DNA of 64,000 nucleotides, taken from Branchiostoma floridae. Lineage: Eukaryota; Chordata; Leptocardii; Amphioxiformes; Branchiostomatidae. The stretch covers positions 14,696,213 through 14,760,212 of the forward strand of contig NC_049997.1 in the NCBI RefSeq assembly GCF_000003815.2, in the 5' to 3' direction. Shown here one piece after another: positions 1 through 35,400 of this stretch (the first letter of the stretch is position 1; each line of letters begins with the position of its first letter). Position numbers and translations under genes: made by a program. The notes under the pieces are model-generated. The model ran no database searches. It was given only the letters and a program-made list of their open reading frames with translations, and was not told the origin of the DNA.

Positions 1-3000
1 TTGTCACGAAAACGTCAATCATAGGGAGCCATTCAGAAGGTTGCGTTTCGAACGTGCTCAGTGCTGTTCCATTCCAATCGTACTGCACTACACACACAGT
101 ATGAGTATTATCATCGTATAAACCTATTTTTTCGCTTAAAGTCACCCACAAATTGCCATCTCCGTCGATGGCAACATCAGAAGGGTTCATCGTTTTTTTC
201 CCACTGTCACCTGGAACTACCGTTGGGAAAAGACGAAGGAAGGCCCCGTCCATATTGAAGACTTGTACTCGTTTGTTGCCTGAATCGGTCACAAATATCT
301 CGTTGTCAGGAGATACAGCCACCCCGTAGATGAACATAAATTTTCCCCGGTCCTGTCCTATACCACCGAAAATGATCTTCTCCCATTTCCGTGTGTAGGC
401 ACCTGCATGAAGTGATACATTCATTGGAACTCTTTGAAACAGATATCAGATCGGTGAGCACCCTTGTACACAGGTTTACCTCACATCATATTATTCAGCG
501 ATTAAAAATTTGCGAAGGTTACAATCATGTAACCCGTAACCTTGAGTGGCCTTCAGGTCTTGTTACGCGGTGACCATTAAGTAAAAAAAAGGTCCAAGAA
601 TGGAATGTGCATTTGTAATGCGTCGTAGCTTGTGCTGCATTGGAATTATGGATGCGTTTAGAGCTGTCCTAGTAATCAATTAAAAACTTTTAAACTTTAA
701 TTGATTTCTGACATCAGTGATAGAAAGCGCCTCTCTCTCTAACCAATCAAAAGACGTTACCTTGTGAGCTGTGAAACGTCACAGTCTGCGTGGTTTCCCA
801 TTTCATGTTCCCATCGTAGGTCTCTGCATGAAAGTTATTGCAATTGTACATGAATTCACTCTTTGAAACCGTCCGGAAAATGCACAAGTTTAGCTCTTCA
901 CAGCCGGTGTTCAAATATCCATCTCCGTTTCGGTATACGTAGCCCTGGTTCACACATGTTTGTGCAAATACTACAGCAGTGGGCGAGTCCACAGGTTGTG
1001 TGAGTTAAAATGATGGTAGCAGGTCACAAATCATAAAGGCAGCATAATCAGTGATAGAAAGCAGGGATTCATTTATTCTGCGCCTCTCTCTCTAAACAAT
1101 CAAAAGACGTTACCTTGTGAGCTGTGAAACGTCACCGACTGCGTGGTCTTCCTTGTGGTTTCCCATTTCATGTTTCCATTGTAGATCTCTGCAGAAAAAT
1201 GTACAAGTTTAGCTCTTCACAGTCGGTGTTCAAATATGTGTAAAAGTAATATATGTTCATATGCAAGGTCAGAATGAATATGCGTCGAAGCAGTGAAAAA
1301 TCAACCATTTACCTAGAAAACCAACCAAGCAACCAAGCATGTAAAACAATGAACTTAATAATTAAGTTACCTTTTGAGCTAATCGAAATCGACGGCTGTG
1401 TTGTTGTCCAGAAAGATTCGTTGGCAAATGGTTTCTGTAAGAGAAGACCGATTTAATGCTGTTAGTTTGTTATTTCTCGTGTAATGAAGGGAAAGGCATT
1501 GAACACAGTCACGTGTTTCTGTAGAGATAAAAAAACCTCAATAGAACGATGGTAGAAGCTTACCGTTTGAATGTCCTGGGAACTGTATAATATCCCAAAG
1601 ACCATGCCACTGATTAACACTGACGACAAGACGATAGTTGTGATCAAGACCGCCGCTAAGCGAACATATCTGCATCCTGAAAAAAGTATACGTTACGGTA
1701 AACGTTAGGACAGACTTCCATTTCAATGTTATTTCTATGGGAAATAAAGGGGAAATTGTTAGAAAACAAAGAAAATCGGTAAACAATGTGATGAAACTAA
1801 ATCAGAATTGAACTGCTGTCTTCAAAGCTTCTTTGTCAGTGCCATTTTTCATTAATTTGAGTTTCATAAATTAGTTGTTGATAAAGTAGGTCATTCAGGA
1901 AAGGCTGAAGAAGCGAAAATACTCCATATGTTGTAACAGACATATCTTACCGCATGCTGTTTGTTGTTGAACGTTTGCCATCGGATTGGGGTTCAGTGCA
2001 TGTTGCCCGTACATCGGATTCATAACCAAGGCATGGCGTTTCTTAAGTGACCTTAAAGCTCCAGTAGTATCCTTGGAGATCCCAGGTCCTGCAACGTTAT
2101 TTGGGATGTCATTGCTGCTTTTTGAAAACGTTTCCACTTTCTGAAATGGCTGCTTTGTTTGCGTCACGTCTGAACTTGACACAACAACCGAAACGTCCTC
2201 CTGGCACATGTATGCAACAGCGTATGGTTGAATATCGACATGGAGAGCTGCAGGACCTGGTTTTGGGTGTTTTTTGCTGTCATCATTATCTTCCTGGTAT
2301 CTGACAGCATATGGCTGGAAACAGGGGTTGTAATCATGTTTTGGGTGTTTGTTGCCATCATCATCATTTTCTCCCTGGTATCCAACAGCATATGGCTGGA
2401 TGCAAGGGTTTTCATGATCACGTTTTGGTTGCTTGTTGCCATCATCATCTTCTTCCTGGTATCCAACAGCATATGGCTGGATGCAGGGGTTGTCATCACA
2501 GTCAGCTGTCCTGGTGAGTTTAGGGGCAGTGTTTGAGTCGTCCGTCAGATTAGAGTTCCCGATGTTTTGCTGGTAGATCGAACTGCTTTGCTCAGTATTT
2601 TGCGGGTAAATCGGATTGGGCTTCCCAACGATTAGCGGAAAGATCGGATTAGTTGTCACGTCATATTGTTGGTTGATGGAACTGTTGTTCTCAGCATCCT
2701 GCGAGTAGATGGGACTACGGGTATCGATATCAATATGCATTGGCAGTGAAGCTTGTTCATTGACAGCTGCAGCATCAGATTTTTTGGACTTTTCAACGCA
2801 CTCACCATCATCATAATCTTGATATCCGGTAGCATACGGCTGGATGCAGGGGTTGTCTTCCCGTTTTGTAGGTTTGTCAAAGTAAAAAGTATCATCATCT
2901 TGATATCCGACAGCGTACGGCTGGATACAGGGGTTGTCTCCACGTTTTTCTTTGTAACCAGAATCATCTTTGTAACCAATAGCATATGGCTGGATGCAGG

Positions 3001-3595
3001 GGTCCTCTGTATCAAGTTCTGGAGGTTTCTCTTCGTAATCATCATCATCATCATCATCTTGATATCCGACAGCATACGGCTGGATGTAGAGGTTGTCTCC
3101 ACGTTTTTCTTTGTGTCCAGGGTTGTCATCACGTCTTGTAGGTTTCTCATCGTTATTATCAACGTCTTTATAGCCAATAGCATATTGCTGGATGCAGGGG
3201 TTGTCATTACGTTTTGTAGGTTTGTCATCAAACCAGTCTTTGTCATCATCATCATCATCATCATCTTGATATTCGACAGCATACGCCTGAACACAAGGGT
3301 TGTCTCCACGTTTTTCTTTGTAACAAGAATCATCTTCATAATCTAGATATCCGACAGCATACGGCTGAATGCAGGGGTTGACACCACCGTCAGATGATGG
3401 CCTGCAAATGCTTTTCATGTTACCCACATTTTGACTAGCTCGAAACATGTTAACGTTACATATTGTTGAATCGCCTGCGGCGGCAGAGGCAGAGAGTACG
3501 GCGTTAGATGCGAGGTCGTCTGCCATGAATCCGACAGCTGTGGACGATACCCCAGCTAGAGGTGGTTCTGAGGTAGAAATGAGATCTCCTGGCAT
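1..3595 (-). CDS. Putative type II membrane protein with tyrosine/acidic tail repeats and NHL repeats (3' end beyond window)
   Basis: Exons by phase-consistent splice sites: 3595-1951, 1676-1564, 1434-1371, 1188-1114, 823-761, 402-1 (continues left). The first exon encodes 548 residues: a short leader, then eleven copies of a motif like NPCIQPYAVGY followed by acidic runs, plus NPIYPQ and NPMYGQ motifs. Exon 2 encodes one hydrophobic helix (about residues 555-579, LAAVLITTIVLSSVL...) preceded by Arg-rich CRYVR, so the repeat tail is predicted cytoplasmic and the C-terminus extracellular (type II). Exons 3-5 form a Thr/Ser-rich stalk. Exon 6 has NHL signatures (GVAVSPDNEIFVTD, KRVQVFNMDG, DVAIDGDGNLWV), as in TRIM/NHL beta-propellers, but no RING or B-box is seen. 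NPxY motifs are known PTB/clathrin-adaptor ligands; use here is inferred. Exon 5 could extend upstream, because its frame stays open. Ligand and function are unknown. Confidence 0.75.
712..1240 (-). repeat. Tandem duplication that doubled an exon of the NHL membrane gene
   Basis: About 200 bp at 712-925 recurs at about 1047-1240, including the flanking intron text (gtgatagaaagc, cgcctctctctctaa, agctcttcacag) and the donor site. Both copies hold a phase 1-1 exon (823-761 and 1188-1114) encoding NGNMKWETT and VTFHSSQ, so both can be spliced in tandem without breaking the frame. Copy 2 has a small insertion near 1062-1081 and lacks about 50 bp before its acceptor. Confidence 0.8.
2211..3381 (-). 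repeat. Degenerate coding tandem repeat (YAVGY/acidic units)
   Basis: Eleven spaced copies of a codon block for QPYAVGY, each usually preceded by NPCI and followed by runs of GAT (Asp) codons, which read as (atc)n on the plus strand. Unit spacing varies from about 60 to 120 bp, and one long non-repeat linker (about 2505-2815) separates the groups. Two copies deviate (QAYAVEY, QQYAIGY) and the membrane-proximal copy reads QPYAVAYMCQ. Confidence 0.85.
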
Positions 3596-4237
3596 TTTAT
3601 GCCTCTTACATCAAACAGGTTGTCGCTGACCCCCTGATCTGTTTGAAGTTTTTCTGATGTTGTTGATGTCTTCCATTCACTTGTCTTTGCCTTTTCTGAA
3701 GAAGGTAATGCAAGATCTAAGAAGAATCGTGGTCAAAGTGTATCGTAGGCGTAGGATCACATCGGATGAGGATTCGTAATCCTTCTGTCTGCTTTCTTAA
3801 TACATGTACCTTTGCAACATAATATTTGATTGACACACCCAAGCCTATATCCCTCTGGTTTGATCCGAACAGTTCAGAGGAAAATGGCGAAAACACTTAC
3901 TCTTAGACGCCCACGTGCAATTAACGTTACCCGATGATTGTTTACTCTGATTTTGTCTTTTTTTCCTTCAGACTATCGGATTTACCAGTGGCTTGAGTGC
4001 TGCAACGTTAACTTTTTTTGTTCCATTTGCTAGAAAATGCCACCGTTGATAATCTGGTCCCTCATTCTTTGCAGTAATATTTGTGACGCTTTAGATTTTT
4101 GTCTTGAAAGAACCGCTACTGAAGAAATCTGTAGTGTCATGGAATTACATCACTATGCTAAACAATTACTTGGCCGTATGGTATATATACAGTATAGTGT
4201 GACACATTCTCGGTGATACTGTAACTATTCGTTAGAT
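3596..4237. other. 5' flank of the NHL membrane gene
   Basis: AT-rich sequence upstream of the initiator ATG (3593-3595). I see no convincing ORF, TATA box or repeat. The promoter of the minus-strand gene is expected here, but no specific element can be named. Confidence 0.4.
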
Positions 4238-4379: not shown

Positions 4380-4741
4380 GAAAATCCATGTAGACAATCA
4401 TCGATGAAAATCCATGTAGACAATCATCGATGAAAATCCATGTAGACAATCATCGATGAAAATCCATGTAGACAATCATCGATGAAAATCCATGTAGACA
4501 ATCATCGATGAAAATCCATGTAGACAATCATCGATGAAAATCCATGTAGACAATCATCGATGAAAATCCATGTAGACAATCATCGATGAAAATCCATGTA
4601 GACAATCATCGATGAAAATCCATGTAGACAATCATCGATGAAAATCCATGTAGACAATCATCGATGAAAATCCATGTAGACAATCATCGATGAAAATCCA
4701 TGTAGACAATCATCGATGAAAATCCATGTAGACAATCATCG
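4380..4741. repeat. 26-bp minisatellite, about 14 copies
   Basis: Head-to-tail copies of a 26-bp unit (gaaaatccatgtagac + aatcatcgat), near-identical throughout, with no spacers. The period is not a multiple of three, so it is not coding across copies. Each unit contains the palindrome ATCGAT. Such homogeneity suggests recent expansion or an under- or over-counted assembly. Confidence 0.95.
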
Positions 4742-4950
4742 CCAAGGGGTTATCTCTCGTGGGTGTGAAGAGGTATTAGAACTTACAACGTTATTCTTAC
4801 AACTACTCAGATCAAAGCAGGGAGATTGACACACGTGTATTCAACGAGTGTTTGATTGAAAACGCAGAAAAGGATTAGGAAACCTCATGCCATGTAATCC
4901 TGGGATTTCCTTGGACTACCTCAGCTTAGAAATACACGAGTACATGTGAA

Positions 4951-5259
4951 GTGAAGGGATCACCAATATCAGTAAAACAAACAGATCCGTACATCAGCGG
5001 CAGCCTGTTTGGTGTAAAGGGCATAGCCACGCCTGCAATCGCGTTTTTACCACAGAACTACCAACCTCCAGCTGGTGTATTGTCCACTACCGTTGGAATC
5101 ATGGCAGGCAGCCTCGCAACCAACACTGTTCCTTCCGTTACGACAGACGATTCGCAAATAGGTACCGCTAACATGATTCAAGCAAGTAAAAATGTGGGTA
5201 CTATGAAAAGCAACTGTAAGCATCATCATAACAAACAACACATACAAGGTCTCCAGTGA
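4951..5259 (+). pseudogene. Inverted partial copy of the N-terminus of the NHL membrane gene
   Basis: The plus-strand frame aligns with the first 60 residues of the gene at 3595-1: PPAGVLSTTVGIMAG versus PPLAGVSSTAVGFMAD, and NVGTMKSNC versus NVGNMKSIC. There is no ATG in frame at the expected place; the frame is open from about 4951 (GTG). The match ends just where the YAVGY repeats would start, at a good donor (AACT|gtaagc, about 5214), so this could instead be a first exon of a head-to-head paralogue whose other exons are gone or unrecognised. No repeat units, membrane helix or NHL follow on this strand. Confidence 0.55.
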
Positions 5260-9380: not shown

Positions 9381-17111
<7,731 letters not shown>

Positions 17112-26426: not shown

Positions 26427-29400
26427 CTATGTCTTGAGCAGAGGAGAGTTCCACACAGCGGAGCTGGTACGCTTGTTGAAGCGAGACTTCTTCACGCCGA
26501 ACACCTGGGTGAGATCCGGAGTGTCGATGATGTCTCCAAAGATCTTACTGAGGTCGGGAGGATAGTAGCACTGGTTGATGAGCTGAGCTTTCAGAGGTGC
26601 TCCTGTGAGGGAAGATGTTGAGAATTTTGTCAAACAATAAAATTGTATATTTATAGAATTATAAAACAAGACCAGAAGTTTTACCTTTTCTGACAGGAAA
26701 TAAAGACAAATTCATAATTCAAAGTTGACAAAAATAGTTGATTTACTTTTTTTAGCTACAAATACTTTTAGCAGTGGCTCTATTCTGTGATAGGAGGCTT
26801 TTTTTCAGTCTTTGTCAAAATGACAAGATTGTACATTGTTTGTTTAAAGGTCAACTGAGGTCATGTTATGTGCCAGTCCTAGAGCAGACTGCACTAACTT
26901 GCTGTACTGTGATTGGTTAAGCCACCTAGGGCACCTTGCACTTGGTCAGTTCACTATGCACTTGGCCTATAAAAGCGAGGACATGCTGTACTATGCTCAT
27001 TCGAGCCCATAACACTGAGGAAGCCACACGGCGATACATGTTTGTTGTGTGTCAGTTCGAATAAAGTTCCTAAACGGGGAACATGCGGCTCCAGCGTCTT
27101 TTCTGAAGATGTGGCGTAAGTGTGAACGGTTGGCTGAGGTCTCCTTCTCCACATATATCGACAAGATTGTACATTGTAACAAGAATTATACAATGTCTTA
27201 CTTTTCTTACAGATAATAAAGACATCAAATCAAAAGTTGGAAAAACAGTAGACTTTCTTTAAAAGCTACTATAAATTCAGATACTTAAGCAGTGGTTCCA
27301 TTTTGTGATAGGAGGGAAAGGGGTCTTTTTTCTTCAGTATTGAAATTAGCAGTTGAATCAAATTCCATGATATTGTTATGAAAATAGATTAGAAGCTCTT
27401 ATTTGCAGTGATTTGTGCAAAAAAATTAAGTTACTGTGAAGTTTTCCAAAATTCACTGTATTTCAAAATGTCACAATACCAAGGCATGTGCTAAACCTAC
27501 CCTGTGCCCATCTTGGGATCTTCTTACGCGGCTGGTCTTCGTCATCTGTGGAATCATCGCTGTGCAGGTCCTCGATGTGGTAGTTCTCCTCGGTCGCAGC
27601 CTTGTACGTACGCTTCTGCTGTGGAGTCATGTCGTAAGAGTTGGGGTTCCCCTGAAAGGCAAGGTCAAAGAATATAAATACATCAGATCTCCTGGTTACG
27701 TGTGGACAATGGTAGAAACAGAATGTCAAATACATTGTATATCTCCCATATATATAAATACACATGTTTTCAGTGTCAAACTTTAGTCTTGCAGATTTTT
27801 GGTTTCTCCTGTCGATTGGACAGATGAGGAGGCAGACAGGCTATTTGCCTGTTTGCCTGACCTGCACATGACTTTTTATGGTGAAGGAGGGGTGTGCAAT
27901 TCTTTCTCCACCCTCTCGTCTACTGGAGCACTAAGTCTCACAGGGGCAACTGTATGGGAACGTGTGAGGCGGCTCCAGCAGATGCAGCTTTGTTGTTCGG
28001 AGTATCCGTCTCCTAGGACTTCCGACCAAGGTTGTAAGGGGTTCCTCCTACCCCCGACTCGGGTGCCATGGCGGGTGCCGCTCATACCCGAACATGCCCC
28101 TAAGGCCTGTCTCGGCCACATAGCCCCACCAAGCCACACAAGATACTCATTTACACCTGAGTTAAGTGAGCAAAGTCGTGTAAAGTGCCTTTCCCAAGGG
28201 CACAAGATCGGTGACACAGCAGCTGGATTCGAACACGCAACCTCTCGGTCTCGAGCCGCAAATGCTGCCACTGCGCCACGCGGTCCCACATTGCAGTCTT
28301 GCAGATAATGGTTACAGATCAGTGGATAATATTACATTTATCCTTCATTAGATATAGGACAAGCAGTTTTGAAAAAATTCAATATAGGCAGCAGGCTGAA
28401 TAAAAAGTCTAACTGGAAGCTATGTGACTCCACTGCCCACCCCCCAAGTTTAGGGTCAGCAGGTTCATCTGAGATATACCCACCTCCTTGTTGAAAGTGT
28501 TGTTGAGGTTGGGTTTATGCAGACTGCTGTTCATACTGGTGTTGGCTGCAGAGGCGCTGCTGGTGTTCAGAGAGGAGTTCATGATGGCCGCGCGCTTCTT
28601 GGCCTCGGCCTCCTGAACCTCGCGGCGTTCACGTTCCTGTCGCTCGCGCTCCTTCTGCATGATCTCTGCAAGCCGCTGGCGATCCTAAAAACATTCGACA
28701 GAAGAACTAAGATTATAGCTAGATGTTTAACTTCAGAAGAACTCTATTTTTATTACAAACAAGATGTTCAAACACAATTCAATCTGTACAGCTGGATAAA
28801 AAACGGAAATTCTTCTAGACGTTTAGAGTGACATCCATCACTCTTCTTCAGAGTCAATAGAATGAACTGGCAGAACCATTCAATACAAATAACTAGAAAA
28901 ATTGGTTGGATTGGACAATTGTCAATTCACCAACTCCTAAGAATCACATGCAAATGTTACTCAAATGTAAATCATGTTTGCATAGTAAGCATCCTATGGT
29001 AAAATAATACACACTATGGTAAAAGATGCTAAAAGATGTGTAACAATAACTGACCCTTTCTTTCTGCTTCTCATATTCTTCTTTCTTCTTGCGTTCAGCC
29101 TCCTCCCGTGCTCTCCTTTCAGCCTCCTCGCGAGCTTTCCTCTCTGCTTCACGCTGTAGTTCCTTTTCCCGTTCACGTTCCTTACGCTCACGTTCCCTAT
29201 AACAGAAGAAAACAAAGTTTAAAGATATCGTACCTCTGTGTCTGAAAAATATCTAGTGTTTCAGTTGTGTCTTCTTCAACTGCAGTTCATAATGATTATG
29301 CAAAAAAGCTTTTGATAACCGTTACCGTATGATCCACCAATCACTTTCTCTCACTCAATGGTGACTGACATTTAGAACATGTATAAACACAGGCAGTCCA

Positions 29401-32400
29401 AAAACAATTCTGTACTTCCCTGTGATCGTAGTAGGCTCTTCTATTGACCCATGACCTGGAATGTCTGTCAGTCTACACGCAAAGTTAAAAAATTTACAGA
29501 TTCTGGCAACTCTGGCCATCAACATCCTGTCACTCAGACCTTTTTTCCTGTCACTCTTCATTGACTATGACTAGCATATGGGAAATACAAAATGCAGAAA
29601 CGGACAACAACGGTTTTATGGGGCATACACGAAAATCTCACCTCTCCTCTGCAATACGCTGCCTCTCTCTTTCCTTCTCCTCCTCCTGTTGTTTTCTGAG
29701 TTCGATCTCCCGTTGTCGTTCCCTCTCCAGTTCTAGCCGCCGTTCCTCGGCCTGTCTGCGCAGCTCCTCTGCCCGTGCCGCCCTCTCCGCCTCCTCGTGT
29801 TCCCTCTTACGTAGGATCAGCTCGCGGTGGCGCCGCTGTTCTTCCTCCTGTAGAACATGTTAAAAGTCCATTAGAATACAAATGAGTGCAAGGGGGACAC
29901 TTTTTCATGGGGGTCCGACATTTCTGCATTGGGGGACACATTTTCATGGGGGACATTCCTATTACAGGTACTTCTGCATGGTGGAAAACTTTTCATGAGG
30001 GTCCCATATTTTCATGGGGATATTTTTGGAATAAGGGAAACTTTTCACAGGGAACATTTCTGCATTGTGGAAACTTTTTCATGGAGGACACACTTTTCCA
30101 TGGGGATATTTTTGAATAAGGGAAACTTTTCACGGGGAACATTTCTGCATGGTGGAAACTTTTTCATGGAGGACACAGTTTTTCATGGGGACATTTTTGC
30201 ATAAGGGAAACTTTTCATGGGGAACATTTCGGACTATCCAAATAATGTATGAGCTTTTTTTGGCTACACCACAGGGGCTGAGTCTTCAGAAGATGCTAGT
30301 TCCAGTGACTAACCTGTTCCTTCAGTTTCATAAGCCTGGCCTCTTCTTCCTGTTTCCTCCTCGCCTCAGCTTCAGCCCTCTTCTGTAGCTTCAGCTTCTT
30401 CTTTGCGGCATCTTCTGCCAGACGTTCCTCCTTAATTTTCTCCGTCTCGGCCACGCGGTGGCTGTACTCCTTCTCCAGACGTAGTTTCTTCTCCTTGTCC
30501 GCCTTCTCTCTCTGTTCTCGCAGTTTGGCAGCCCGCTTGGTTCTCTCTTCTCGTTTTCTGTGGGGAAATATCACACAAATCACATCAGTCAGTGTTTGAA
30601 CAACAAAGATTGTAACTTGCCTTACACATAAACACATGATTGTTTTTCAGTTGCTACTTTCTCTTGTCTAGTTTTAAAAATTAACCTTACTGTCAACCAA
30701 CTATGCTAGAATCTTTGTTGTAAGAAGAATGTGTACGAACCGTTTTTGCTCTTCCATTTTCTGTTTCTTCTCCTCCTCTCTCTTCTTGATGATCTCTGCC
30801 TCCTTTGCCTTCTTGGCAGCCAGCTTCATTTTCATCTGTCTGGCTCTCTCCTGTTGACAAAAAGTACAATGTGATACATATCTGCATGCATGGTATCAAT
30901 GGTTATGAACCAGATAATTGTAGCCCACTATACCTACTGTTTGCACAGTGATCTCCAATAGTGTTTTTACTTCCATGTATTGCTCTCCGTGCGTTTGCTT
31001 GTCTGTCTCTGTGTCTTTGCATTATGTACTTCAGTCACATTACGTATGAATATGAAATTATGATGTAAGTTACCAGTCCAAACTAGTGACTCTTAAAAAG
31101 TCACAGTTGCTAGAATAACAGAAAGTGAAGTTCAAAGTTTGCAGAATTATTCATTCATCAACCCTGTTAGACATCTGACAGACAGGTCATGGGGTCAATC
31201 GAAGGGCCTACTAGTACTTGTGCATGGGGATGTCTGCTCTACTATCAGTTACTGTCACTGAGTATTCCTTACCTCTGAAGACATCTGTTTGACAGGAGTG
31301 TTCCTCTTGATGAAGGAGGTGACAGTGGCGTTCAGGTTGCCTGGCGTCATGAGGGAACTCCTGCTGCTGGTCAGGAACGAGAACTGTTTCGGACGAGGAC
31401 GAATGACCTGGTGGAAAAACACAATCATGGTGACTCACTAAGATCTAAAAAACCTAATCCAATTAAAAATTCAACCAATGATAAAGCGGCAGTTAGCAGT
31501 TCAACCAATGACAGAGTGGCTGCATGTTCAACAAATATTTGCGCATCAATGTCTTTATTTAGCAATTCTAATGTTCTATATTTTGACGGAGGTGGGTAGG
31601 TTGGTCAATTAGTATTAGTAAGAACTTTAGAATTGTAAGAATTTGAAAATAGTCACAGAGATTGGTTTGTCTAATTTCTAAGAGGTGAAACTATAGCACA
31701 CCAGTTAGGGCACACAAGAAAGTCATTTTATTTTTTAAAAAGCTCACCCGTTGTTGTGATCTCAGAAGAGGTCTTGTGAATATAGCCTGTAGAGTAGGAG
31801 TTTTTATATATCTTTACTGTAGTCATGCAATAGACAAACTCTTTTAACACCAAGACAGAGTTACCACATAGAAACAGGATTAGAAACACACAATCAACAG
31901 ATGAGTAGAAGAAACAACATCTTGAAGACAAAGATCATGGTTCGAGTTGTTTTTCTCACCTTGCTCCGAGGGCACTTGGGAGAGGGTGTCTTGTCAACGA
32001 TGTCTTCTTCTTCGTCTTCCGTGGAGTTATCTTCAGATTTAGCCAAGCTTGGACTGGAGGATGAATGTTTAACAATTAAACTAAAGGATACACCAACAAC
32101 AGAAAAAATATCACAACAAAGACATCTGTGCCGATGATAATGTACAAAACTTAATAGGAAATTCATACAGCCTAGATCTACAGTAGTGGTAGGATGCCTT
32201 TAGACTTGCTTCCAAAAGATTGATGCAAGTTAACACTGACCTTGTTGCTTTGAGGCTGGCCTTAGAGCCCTGGCTGTTTTCTAGGCTATCCCTGGACAGG
32301 TCAACGACCTCTGGTTCACCAGACTGGGACAGCTTGGATCGCTTCTTGGCTGGGGCGGTCTTTCCTCCATCCGAGCTCTGATGATAAGGTACAAGAAATT

Positions 32401-35400
32401 TAGCGTTTTTAAGTTAAAAGGAACACAAAAAGGAAGAAAGGTAAGGAAAAAGCTTGGCATGATTTTGCCCATATAAGGGGTGATAGTATTCAATAAATAA
32501 TTATTTGATGTACAGTTTAAGTTTTTACTCACGTCATCACTTCTAGAGGTCCTTTTCCTACTAGGAGGTCTCATTATCTCCTCCATGGTTGAATCTTTTC
32601 CGTCTTCCGATGCTGATGACATATGCGAGGCGCGGGAGCGTGAAGCTCGTGTGGACATCCGTCCTACCGTCTCCGCAACCTCGACTTTTTGCCGCGGGAG
32701 AACGGAAGATTTCCGCTTCATGGTGGCGACTTTGCAGGACAGGCGGACCGACTGGCGTTTGGAGCTCCGTCGGCTAGACCGTGTTGACCGTGTCGATCTG
32801 TTGCTCGTGTTTGAGATGTCAGACTTGGCTGTCTCCTCTTCCAAGCTGTCTTGTTCAACAGATTCTTGCATCATCTCCTCTTCTTCAACAGGAGCATCAG
32901 TTTTGGTAGCGCTGTCGGTTTCTGCGGCGTCCTTGCCTCCCATCCATTCTACGATCTTACTCGCTGCGGCTGACACAAACTGTCTTGCTTTTGAGCGTGT
33001 GCTTCTCATTGGCTGTTGCTGGGGGGCGGGGCTTGCCGCTAGCTGTGTCTTGGACTTCTGCTGTAGTTTGCCTGCTATTGGCTTCTTTAGCTGTTTCTGT
33101 GGCGTGTCGTCATCGGAAGAACTTACTATCATCTCTTCGTGTTTCTTGATAAGATCCTTGACAAAGCCGGTACCGGGGGTGGCTGGCTTCACTGGAGACG
33201 TTCGGACTTCTGGGAAGAAGCGCGTCTTGACACTTTCTGTCTCCATCTCTTCCACGTCCTCACTTTCACTTGTAGGCTTGTCGTCTCCCTCTGACATCTC
33301 GCTTTCTGTGGTCTCCTCAGATGGTTTGTCTGCGATCTTGATTTTGTTGGCTTGTCTCTTCTTTGCCGGAGACTTCTGAGTGTCTGATTCTGACTCCGAT
33401 CCTTTCTGCAGTCTAGTTTTGGTGCGGGTGGATCTGGCTGTCGTGGTTTCTTCGCCTTCCGTGTCGGTTTCCGATGAGGCCATTGCTGTGTCGGATTCGG
33501 ACTTCTTTTGTAGTCTAGTTTTGGTGCGAGTGGACCTGGTTGTTGTACCTACTTCTTCGCCTTCGGTGTCGGTACCACTTTTGCCAGATGCCATTGCCTT
33601 GTCAGACTCATCTTCTGATTTCTTTTGCAATCTGGTTTTAGTGCGTGTCAAACGGGTTGCTGTAGCAGTTACTTCGCTTTCGGTGTCAGTCCCGCTTTTG
33701 CCAGGTGCCATTTCTGCGCCAGCCTCTGATTCCGTTTGCAGTCTAGATTTGGTACGCGTAGACCTGTTTGTTGCAACAGATTCCTCGCTTTCTGTGTCGG
33801 TCCCACTTTTGCCAGATGCCTTTGCATTATCCAACTCGGGTTCAGACCCCTTCTTGACTCTTTTAGATGGTGGTATATGCTCTGTTGTTTCTTCACCCTC
33901 TGTATCAGTACCAGTGCTACTTTGCGTGAGGTTTCTCTGCCTTGATGCACGAGTTGCTCTGGTTGGTCGGATGACCGTCACCTCTGCTTCGGAATCGGAC
34001 TCTGTGGTATTTCCGCCCCGTGTGCGAGTAGAGCGTGTGGTCTTGGGGGGAGGCGGCTGGGCAAAGCTCACTGATTGGCTGGCGTGCGTAGGGGGAGGAG
34101 TCTTGCAGTCTTCCACCTTCTGTGTGGGGATGTTCAGGGTTGCCTTGAGCAGTTCTGTCTCAGAGATGGCCTTGAGTTCGTGGGCGTTTGATCTCCGCAT
34201 GGCTCTACTCCGTCTAGAAGCAGAGCTCCTGGACAAGGAAACAAACATTTCATGGCACTTAGTATATTCAAGTGCTTGTGTTCCGACCTATCAGCCCAAG
34301 GTTTCTAAAGCAAACTTTATGCAAGGCATGTTTTAGGATGGACCGAAGCCACAAGGCATAACTCTAGATCTGTGCTGTTCATTGGACTTTCATTGACATA
34401 TATGTGTATATGCACAAGTCTAATACATGTATTGAGAAACTACTTTAACCTTCAATTTAAAGTTAGCTGTTTGGCACTTATTTTGTATTGGTTACTGTGT
34501 CTTTCAGGAGGGAGAATGTTGAGAACAAAGAAGAGAACCCTGTTTTATGTGCCAAGAAGATACCTGTACTACTAGTATTTCTGTACTAGTAATTCAAGGT
34601 TAAATTGATTTTTTTTATATTACCTCCTTTTAGCTGCAGGCTCCACATTTTCTTCCTCCTCCTCTACTTCTGGTAGTTTCCGGATGCGTCTCCGGCGGTT
34701 CTTGGCTGATGGCGTCTTGGGCAGCAACTCTGGTTCTTTCCTGTACATGTTAAATGAAAAATTATTTGCATGGACTGGAGTTGAGACATTCAAGTTTAAA
34801 AACTAAAAAAGTGCAAAAAGACAAAAGATGGTGGATGCCATTTGAAACATCTGACCATTTTCAAAATCATATCCAGTTGCTTGAGTAACTGCTTTTTTGG
34901 CGTAAAAAATTGCATATTTTCCAAAACAAATTTTATCCAGAATTCGGCACACAAAGATCACTAAAGGTAATCTGCAGTATAGCAATTCTACCTACTTAGT
35001 GTCTTACTGTAGTTTTATAATCTCCAAGCAGATCCTACGGTAGCATAAGATAGTATCAAAGGCTGGCAGAGGAGTGAAGCCGGCCTAGGAGTGTGTTTGG
35101 CTACCGGGGCAAATGGACACCTCTTGGCAGACTACACTCCTTGGCCAGTTTGGTACTATTTCATGCCATTGTAGGATCTGCTTGGAGATTAGTAGTTTTA
35201 GACAATTTAGATTGAGTTCACACGTCTCCAGACAACAAACTACGACATTAACTGATTAACTCATCATTAAGCAATTAGCATTTGAATGGCCATTCTCACA
35301 GATTTGCTTTGTGCCATAAGCCCCACATTCTAATTAATGCATCTGGCATGTTAGGGCATGTTCTACTGTGGACAGAAATGGGATAATCCTCCATTGTGAA

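Follow-up and report, generated by a model that had tools for sequence, protein, structure and literature searches.

Recurrent tyrosine-repeat tails joined to a membrane helix and an NHL propeller: a probable family of type II receptors in the lancelet genome

The window analysed here, a stretch of 64,000 bases of lancelet DNA (positions 14696213-14760212 of contig C19), carries at its left end a minus-strand gene whose first exon encodes a long tail of repeated tyrosine motifs. The question raised by this locus is whether the tail, a membrane helix and an NHL propeller belong to one protein, and what kind of protein that would be. Based on the gene model, the repeat and its recurrence elsewhere in the genome, we read the window gene as belonging to a multigene family that probably consists of single-pass type II receptors, in which phosphorylation of the tail would create many docking sites for SH2/PTB adaptors, and give this reading a rough probability of 0.55. 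The tail-helix-NHL architecture of the family is well supported by the predicted gene structures, and from the same sequences we infer tail phosphorylation, adaptors, ligand and topology. The gene model is composed of six exons.

1951..3595, minus strand: exon 1, probable cytoplasmic tail of 548 complete codons with 11 YA[VIT]xY units, Asp runs and 2 NPxY; splice donor GCG followed by GTAAGATA
1564..1676, minus strand: exon 2, single predicted transmembrane helix (LAAVLITTIVLSSVLISGMVFGIL), with two basic residues directly before it on the tail side
1371..1434, minus strand: exon 3, stalk next to the membrane, containing an NES sequon, phase 1 at its end
1114..1188, minus strand: exon 4, Ser/Thr-rich stalk repeat of phase 1-1, resembling exon 5
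761..823, minus strand: exon 5, Ser/Thr-rich stalk repeat of phase 1-1
1..402, minus strand: exon 6, beginning of the probably extracellular NHL propeller, going on leftward into Ns

Exon 1 is an open frame that starts with the ATG at 3595 and closes with a GT donor after 1951. Each of the five introns is bounded by GT and AG, and a single reading frame runs through the six exons for 787 residues up to the window edge. The NHL exon begins in phase 1; lancelet exon shuffling favours exons of phase 1-1, according to the available part of one study (PMC4284660). The partial exon 6 (402..1) belongs to the Pfam NHL family (PF01436) with 44.4 bits against a cut-off of 20 (E=1.2e-11), and no family was matched in the Pfam scan of the stalk. 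The first-pass annotation of this DNA had placed a long tail, one membrane helix and an NHL propeller in one gene, and this is borne out by the frame-keeping GT-AG junctions, the lack of a strongly hydrophobic N-terminus and the recurrence at other loci described below. The interval which it gave, 1564-3595, covers exactly exons 1 and 2, but the NHL exon lies outside it, incomplete and separated by three short exons. To the left, where it proposed to complete the gene, exon 6 breaks off in 1,800 Ns directly at the window edge, and the NHL domain of the window gene is partial.

The eleven YA[VIT]xY units with Asp runs, already noticed in the first-pass annotation, are indeed present in the 548-residue tail, as compared to a mean of 0.02 and a maximum of 2 in 20,000 composition shuffles. 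The units lie at tail residues 79, 105, 138, 174, 204, 227, 254, 375, 402, 429 and 458, with NPCIQPYAVGYQDDDD as their common form. Four positions, Q(-2), Y(0), A(+1) and Y(+4), do not vary among the eleven, runs of up to 8 Asp follow the second Tyr in some units, and the whole tail contains 73 Asp and 35 Tyr. The same annotation spoke of several NPxY motifs, which overstates the window gene, where the strict count is 2 (NPIY at residue 327 and NPMY at residue 526; shuffle P(>=2)=0.02) and most NP pairs fall within NPC[IVF]Q.Y, a non-NPxY pattern; the word fits better the relatives on contig C16, two of which have 5 and 8. One YxxPhi and one ITIM-like motif, both on one tyrosine, and no PPxY were counted in the window tail. 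The test for immunoreceptor tyrosine-based activation or inhibitory motifs (ITAM/ITIM) found neither paired YxxPhi nor repeated [SIVL]xYxx[IVL] there. The tail profile had one match in the PDB, taken as chance (E=3.8), and none of 18 pattern matches in viral contigs was confirmed. The Pfam scan of exons 1-3 gave no family at E<=1, so neither a RING, a B-box nor a kinase domain was found in these exons.

The repeat core is conserved by selection. Among ten aligned units, the proportions of silent (pS) and amino acid-changing (pN) differences were 0.47 and 0.10 in the core and 0.49 and 0.42 in the linker, and the pN difference between core and linker was reached by none of 500 random choices of 11 columns. 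Since the linker alignment needs gaps, the test was redone on ungapped flanks (pS 0.30, pN 0.35), where amino acid change was still above that of the core. Tyr codons vary silently over the 11 units, with TAT/TAC ratios of 9/2 at the first and 6/5 at the second Tyr; Ala(+1) is GCT in all 11 and is therefore uninformative on selection. Comparison of two C16 relatives gave a pN of 0.035 in the motif vs 0.151 in the rest, with pS of 0.18 and 0.22 (Fisher P=0.0002). The last three tandem units alone (core pS 0.28, pN 0.05; next three codons pS 0, pN 0.17) are too small a set to weigh. These substitution patterns indicate that the unit core is under purifying selection, beyond what recent copying alone would give. 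The multivalence proposed in the first-pass annotation is real, with 11 units in the window tail.

The tail recurs widely in the lancelet's own genome, of which 513 Mb in 431 contigs were searched. The unit pattern was found at 9 places vs 0 for the reversed control, and a second pattern, QPYAVxYQ(E/D), gave 57 matches vs 0. Chance or low complexity as the origin of the repeat was ruled out by the shuffles, the selection test and the reversed-pattern control. Exon 1 used as a protein query gave at least 54 matches (best 79 of 171 candidates scored). When the protein and QPYAVxYQ(E/D) matches were merged within 3 kb, with the window gene and its relic at 5062-5223 counted in, at least 64 tail loci were obtained. 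Among the matches listed, an NHL lies downstream on the same strand at at least 37 of the 64 loci within 12 kb and at least 34 within 6 kb; in the strand-flipped control the numbers were 2 and 0, and random placement gave a mean of 0.05 co-locations, a rough value as equal lengths were assumed for 19 contigs. Three NHL partners lie 8-11 kb off and possibly belong to another gene. Direct reading adds an NHL at 8 of the other 27 loci (the window gene, L012-L014, L048, L054, L055 and L058), which brings the tails with a same-strand NHL downstream to at least 45 of 64, the window gene and 44 others; these counts rest on the tail and NHL matches listed and are lower bounds. An NHL is present at 14 of the 18 loci whose 3' flank was read directly, a non-random sample. 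For 23 distinct tail loci about 1.5 kb of 3' flank was examined, and 16 of them have a candidate transmembrane (TM) exon in the expected phase (phase 1); no candidate was found at the remaining seven within the short flank and the criteria used. In a separate reading, all three C16 loci have such a candidate. The available part of one paper warns that some of the domain novelty reported for lancelets may be gene-prediction error (PMC4967905), and recurrence of tail and NHL at other loci therefore matters: it argues against a one-off or mis-joined gene model. That tail and NHL are accidental neighbours was held unlikely on the co-location counts.

Several relatives repeat the complete layout. 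On the same strand, 17-21 kb beyond the left edge of the window, the C19 neighbour combines a tail with a TM exon and an NHL exon that is complete and closes with a stop codon. Three C16 loci combine tails of 18-residue NPMY repeats and YAxxY units with a TM exon candidate of the same phase and a complete NHL; their strict NPxY counts are 3, 5 and 8, most of the 5 and 8 at the 18-residue period. Over 31 tail loci the numbers range from 1 to 11 for YAxxY and from 0 to 8 for NPxY. At least two YAxxY occur in 29 of them, at least one NPxY in 27 (above shuffles at P<0.01 in 13), and a membrane-side NPMY-type motif in 17; the frames were picked by motif content, so that the shuffle values describe preselected homologues and the Y/A/Y invariance arises by construction. 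The 106 units of these tails give the consensus I-Q-P-Y-A-V-x-Y-Q-(E/D)-x-D-D, with acidic residues at 43% of the seven positions after the second Tyr vs 18% of the six before the first. The partner of the tail may vary. At locus L049 (C11:15.91 Mb) the tail comes with a TM exon, a coiled coil and exons of LDLR class B (PF00058, one at E=2.5e-5 above the cut-off and one at 0.025 below it). L059 (C15:1.43 Mb) resembles it in TM exon and coiled coil; no propeller was found there in 5 kb. The two loci form a subfamily marked by MEPYAV(K/R)YQEEDDDDD units, by a TM exon of another kind and by a coiled coil that repeats VDALKRDQDDM. As the L049 tail precedes coiled-coil and LDLR-class-B exons, the tail module has been reused, and the cassette of tail and TM exon appears to be joined mostly, though not solely, to NHL. 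At L053 (C3:340001-347000) a tail-like frame has a different long repeat (IQPYAVSYMDVSCKGENGRLPPYATTTLAHD), and no NHL was found within 7 kb.

The complete NHL domain of the C19 neighbour scores 75.2 bits (E=2.2e-21), and in four relatives the domain is complete with 277-282 residues, then a stop. In the PDB the window NHL matched the NHL of PknD weakly (1rwi, E=1.7e-5), while a WD-40 repeat chain (2ymu) topped the TRIM-NHL proteins by summed score with no single stretch passing; the solved structures nearest by sequence to the C19 neighbour NHL are Thin, TRIM71, TRIM3 and TRIM2. The ratio of nonsynonymous to synonymous substitution rates (dN/dS) among the three C16 NHL domains is 0.64-0.66, i.e., fast yet below one. 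A genome search with the C19 neighbour NHL gave at least 139 matches (best 139 of 739 candidates), 65 of them in one stretch of C17 (17.25-18.97 Mb) and 74 scattered among many contigs. On C17, 53 of the 65 listed matches lie within open frames of 500-660 residues; elsewhere 72 of 74 lie in frames of 230-360. This C17 cluster suggests a second, tail-less NHL expansion, and its members may be TRIM-like genes.

The topology was read from hydropathy, charge and sequons. As the first-pass annotation had stated, there is one membrane helix, at 1676-1564: it is the sole strongly hydrophobic stretch in the 607-residue model of exons 1-3, its best 19-residue mean hydropathy is 2.32, no other 19-residue window exceeds 1.2, and the first 60 residues peak at 0.96. 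The 20 residues before the helix contain 2 K/R and no acids, and the 20 after it 1 K/R and 2 acids. On the NHL side of the window model there are two sequons, NES and NGT, and the complete NHL domains of the C19 neighbour, L012, L013 and L014 have 5, 1, 1 and 4, respectively. The best reading is probably type II, with the tail inside and the propeller outside. A single helix, with none at the N-terminus, fits this reading, and the charge signal for its orientation is weak.

If the window gene is such a receptor, the propeller would bind a ligand outside the cell, and clustered receptors would become substrates of a tyrosine kinase at their paired tyrosines, of which the second precedes acidic residues. 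Many copies of SH2/PTB or endocytic adaptors could then gather on the phosphotyrosines and NPxY sites. Docking strength would depend on the number of units and specificity on the divergence of the propellers, much as in a repertoire of receptors for innate recognition or adhesion. A bolder proposal, which we offer tentatively as possible rather than probable, is that several dozen type II receptors have arisen by expansion in the lancelet. A single reusable signalling cassette of tyrosine tail and membrane exon, joined at a fixed splice phase, would be combined in them with diversifying propellers (NHL, at least once LDLR class B), giving a phosphotyrosine recognition or adhesion system unknown in vertebrates with copy number as gain control.

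A number of points weigh against the receptor reading, which was made from genome sequence. No well-known docking motif is repeated in the window tail. The classical FxNPxY carries a hydrophobic residue at -5, and this residue is absent from the window NPxY sites. The positive-inside bias is weak for the tail-inside orientation, and two of the four complete NHL relatives have a single sequon only. The NHL of the window gene is incomplete at the window edge, and an AlphaFold run from a single sequence on this partial NHL was uninformative and left unused (predicted local distance difference test score, pLDDT, 33). In the C19 neighbour, Ns break up the tail and separate the helix from the NHL; in the C16 relative L001/L012 the tail frame is broken and diverges from its siblings near its end. 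No NHL was seen at 19 of the 64 tail loci among the matches listed and by direct reading, and none was found within 7 kb of the C9 (partly N) and C3 tail loci. An NHL also lies upstream on the same strand at at least 13 of the 64 loci within 12 kb and at least 11 within 6 kb; upstream NHLs are expected in tandem clusters, and proximity alone is therefore no proof of one gene. Finally, pS of the ungapped flanks is under that of the core (0.30 vs 0.47), so silent divergence is unequal on some measures.

Other explanations of the tail take its motifs differently. The proteins could be endocytic or scavenger-type uptake receptors, in which NPxY and tyrosine motifs would mainly serve to bind clathrin adaptors and take up the NHL ligands, phosphotyrosine signalling being minor. 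This would agree with the 5 and 8 NPxY of two C16 relatives, mostly at the 18-residue period, with the membrane-side NPMY-type motif of 17 of 31 tails, and with the LDLR-class-B repeats at one related locus, a repeat type known from uptake receptors. However, the best conserved motif is YAVxYQ(E/D), neither NPxY nor YxxPhi, the window tail holds just one YxxPhi and two NPxY, and NPxY exceeds shuffles (P<0.01) in only 13 of 31 tails, and we consider uptake as the main role rather unlikely. Less likely again is a structural or condensate-forming tail, whose evenly spaced tyrosines and acidic spacers would cluster the protein under the membrane with no phospho-docking: an aromatic and acidic repeat with 73 Asp and 35 Tyr in 548 residues would suit such a function, but selection preserves a particular core, with Q and P among its residues, beyond the spacing of Tyr.

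The propeller and the gene model have also been questioned in this way. A cytosolic or membrane-anchored TRIM-NHL relative, with its propeller facing the cytoplasm and binding RNA or ubiquitin substrates, is brought to mind by Thin, TRIM71, TRIM3 and TRIM2 as the nearest solved relatives of the neighbour NHL; yet exons 1-3 match no Pfam family at E<=1, RING and B-box included, a TM helix and a Ser/Thr-rich stalk separate tail from propeller, and sequons occur within the propeller, which leaves it very unlikely. The repeat exon and the NHL exon might, at the last, be separate adjacent genes joined by error. The model was built from genome sequence alone, lancelet gene predictions are said to be error-prone in the available part of PMC4967905, and NHL is also found upstream on the same strand at at least 13 of 64 tail loci. 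Against this, the same order and strand recur at at least 45 of the 64 loci vs 2 of 64 when strand-flipped, and a candidate TM exon of the same phase lies beside many tails, so that an artefact of this kind can scarcely be credited.

The 5' end of exon 1 has been duplicated in inverted orientation within the window.

3393..3684, minus strand: 5' end of exon 1 and upstream sequence, with an inverted copy at 4942-5227 (72% identity across 297 aligned bases)
5062..5220, plus strand: relic of the N-terminal coding sequence of exon 1 (54% protein identity to residues 10-65; dN/dS about 0.32)

The dN/dS of about 0.32 in its coding part suggests that the inverted duplicate may stem from a once-functional copy, and tblastn within the window found no copy of tail or helix besides this relic. 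Between the 5' end of exon 1 and the relic lies a perfect 26-base tandem satellite (4380-4741, 13.9 copies, 100% match). To the left of the window, beyond the 1,800 Ns, the right end of L009 has a frame resembling a retroelement fragment, as judged by eye. Farther right in the window, the minus strand contains a likely first exon of a Ras-family small GTPase at 17016-17111 (Pfam Ras E=0.0002, 21.4 bits, just missing the cut-off of 21.6), an INCENP Aurora-binding region at 27466-27840 (PF03941, E=1.9e-7) and a 668-residue charged low-complexity frame at 32284-34287 with no Pfam match, the last two possibly being one gene on the same strand.

In the literature searched (open papers, mostly titles and abstract starts), no description of a family combining such a tail, a TM helix and NHL was found, and the unit strings were absent. 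None of the papers found that mention both Branchiostoma and NHL, PMC3503706, PMC3160408 and PMC5851990 among them, is by title or abstract start about such receptors, and the available text of PMC4284660 mentions neither 'NHL' nor 'TRIM'. Multi-tyrosine docking receptors are already known; what we have not found described is the combination of layout and family. Existing annotations probably list family members as uncharacterised or TRIM-like. Since the NHL part is similar in sequence to TRIM proteins, such genes may have been labelled TRIM-like E3 ligases although RING and B-box were not found in exons 1-3 of the window gene, which is relevant to annotation. If the receptor reading is true, an invertebrate chordate would possess a large receptor family in which propellers are coupled to tyrosine tails of unusual multivalence, a class to be added to the chordate receptors, and the tails differing in motif number would be a natural series for relating multivalence to signalling strength.

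The first-pass annotation knew of no described receptor with this layout, and this stands for the full combination but not for its parts, since an extracellular NHL on a type II protein is known from teneurins and an NHL sensor domain from PknD. To our knowledge, an NHL ectodomain and a YAVxY repeat are not part of the LDLR/LRP, CED-1/MEGF10 and CD200R families of NPxY receptors. These share NPxY tail motifs with the window gene, whose tail has two, LDLR-class-B repeats occur in one tail relative, and NPxY acts in CD200R signalling, as the available part of the source has it (PMC8007030). TRIM-NHL proteins (TRIM2/3/71, Thin, Brat) are alike in the NHL, but the window gene has a TM helix and a probable extracellular placement of the propeller; membership was rejected as no RING, B-box or coiled coil family was found in exons 1-3 (Pfam, E<=1). 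For the tail the closest working analogy is p130Cas, a cytosolic scaffold. Its substrate domain has 15 YxxP motifs, which become SH2/PTB docking sites once phosphorylated (PMC3983058, available part). The motif there is YxxP vs (I)QPYAVxYQ(E/D) here, and no homology is claimed. PknD has its kinase part inside and its NHL sensor outside the membrane. In this bacterial receptor kinase the NHL propeller serves as the sensor domain (PMC6107167, available part). The sensor is alike, but the window gene is an animal gene whose tail is without a kinase domain (Pfam scan) and has the tyrosine repeat instead. According to the available part of PMC5851990, teneurins span the membrane once in type II orientation; their N-terminal part lies inside the cell, and the NHL propeller outside it determines their binding specificity. 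Type II topology with an outside NHL would be common to both if the prediction made here from sequence is right. The window family differs by its tyrosine-repeat tail, and no EGF domain was noticed in the flanks, where no search aimed at EGF was made. The NHL exon stops after about 280 residues in the C19 neighbour and three C16 relatives, so there is no teneurin-like YD shell there, and teneurin membership was rejected on this ground. By layout, the teneurins and the PknD sensor appear to be the closest analogies to the predicted lancelet family.

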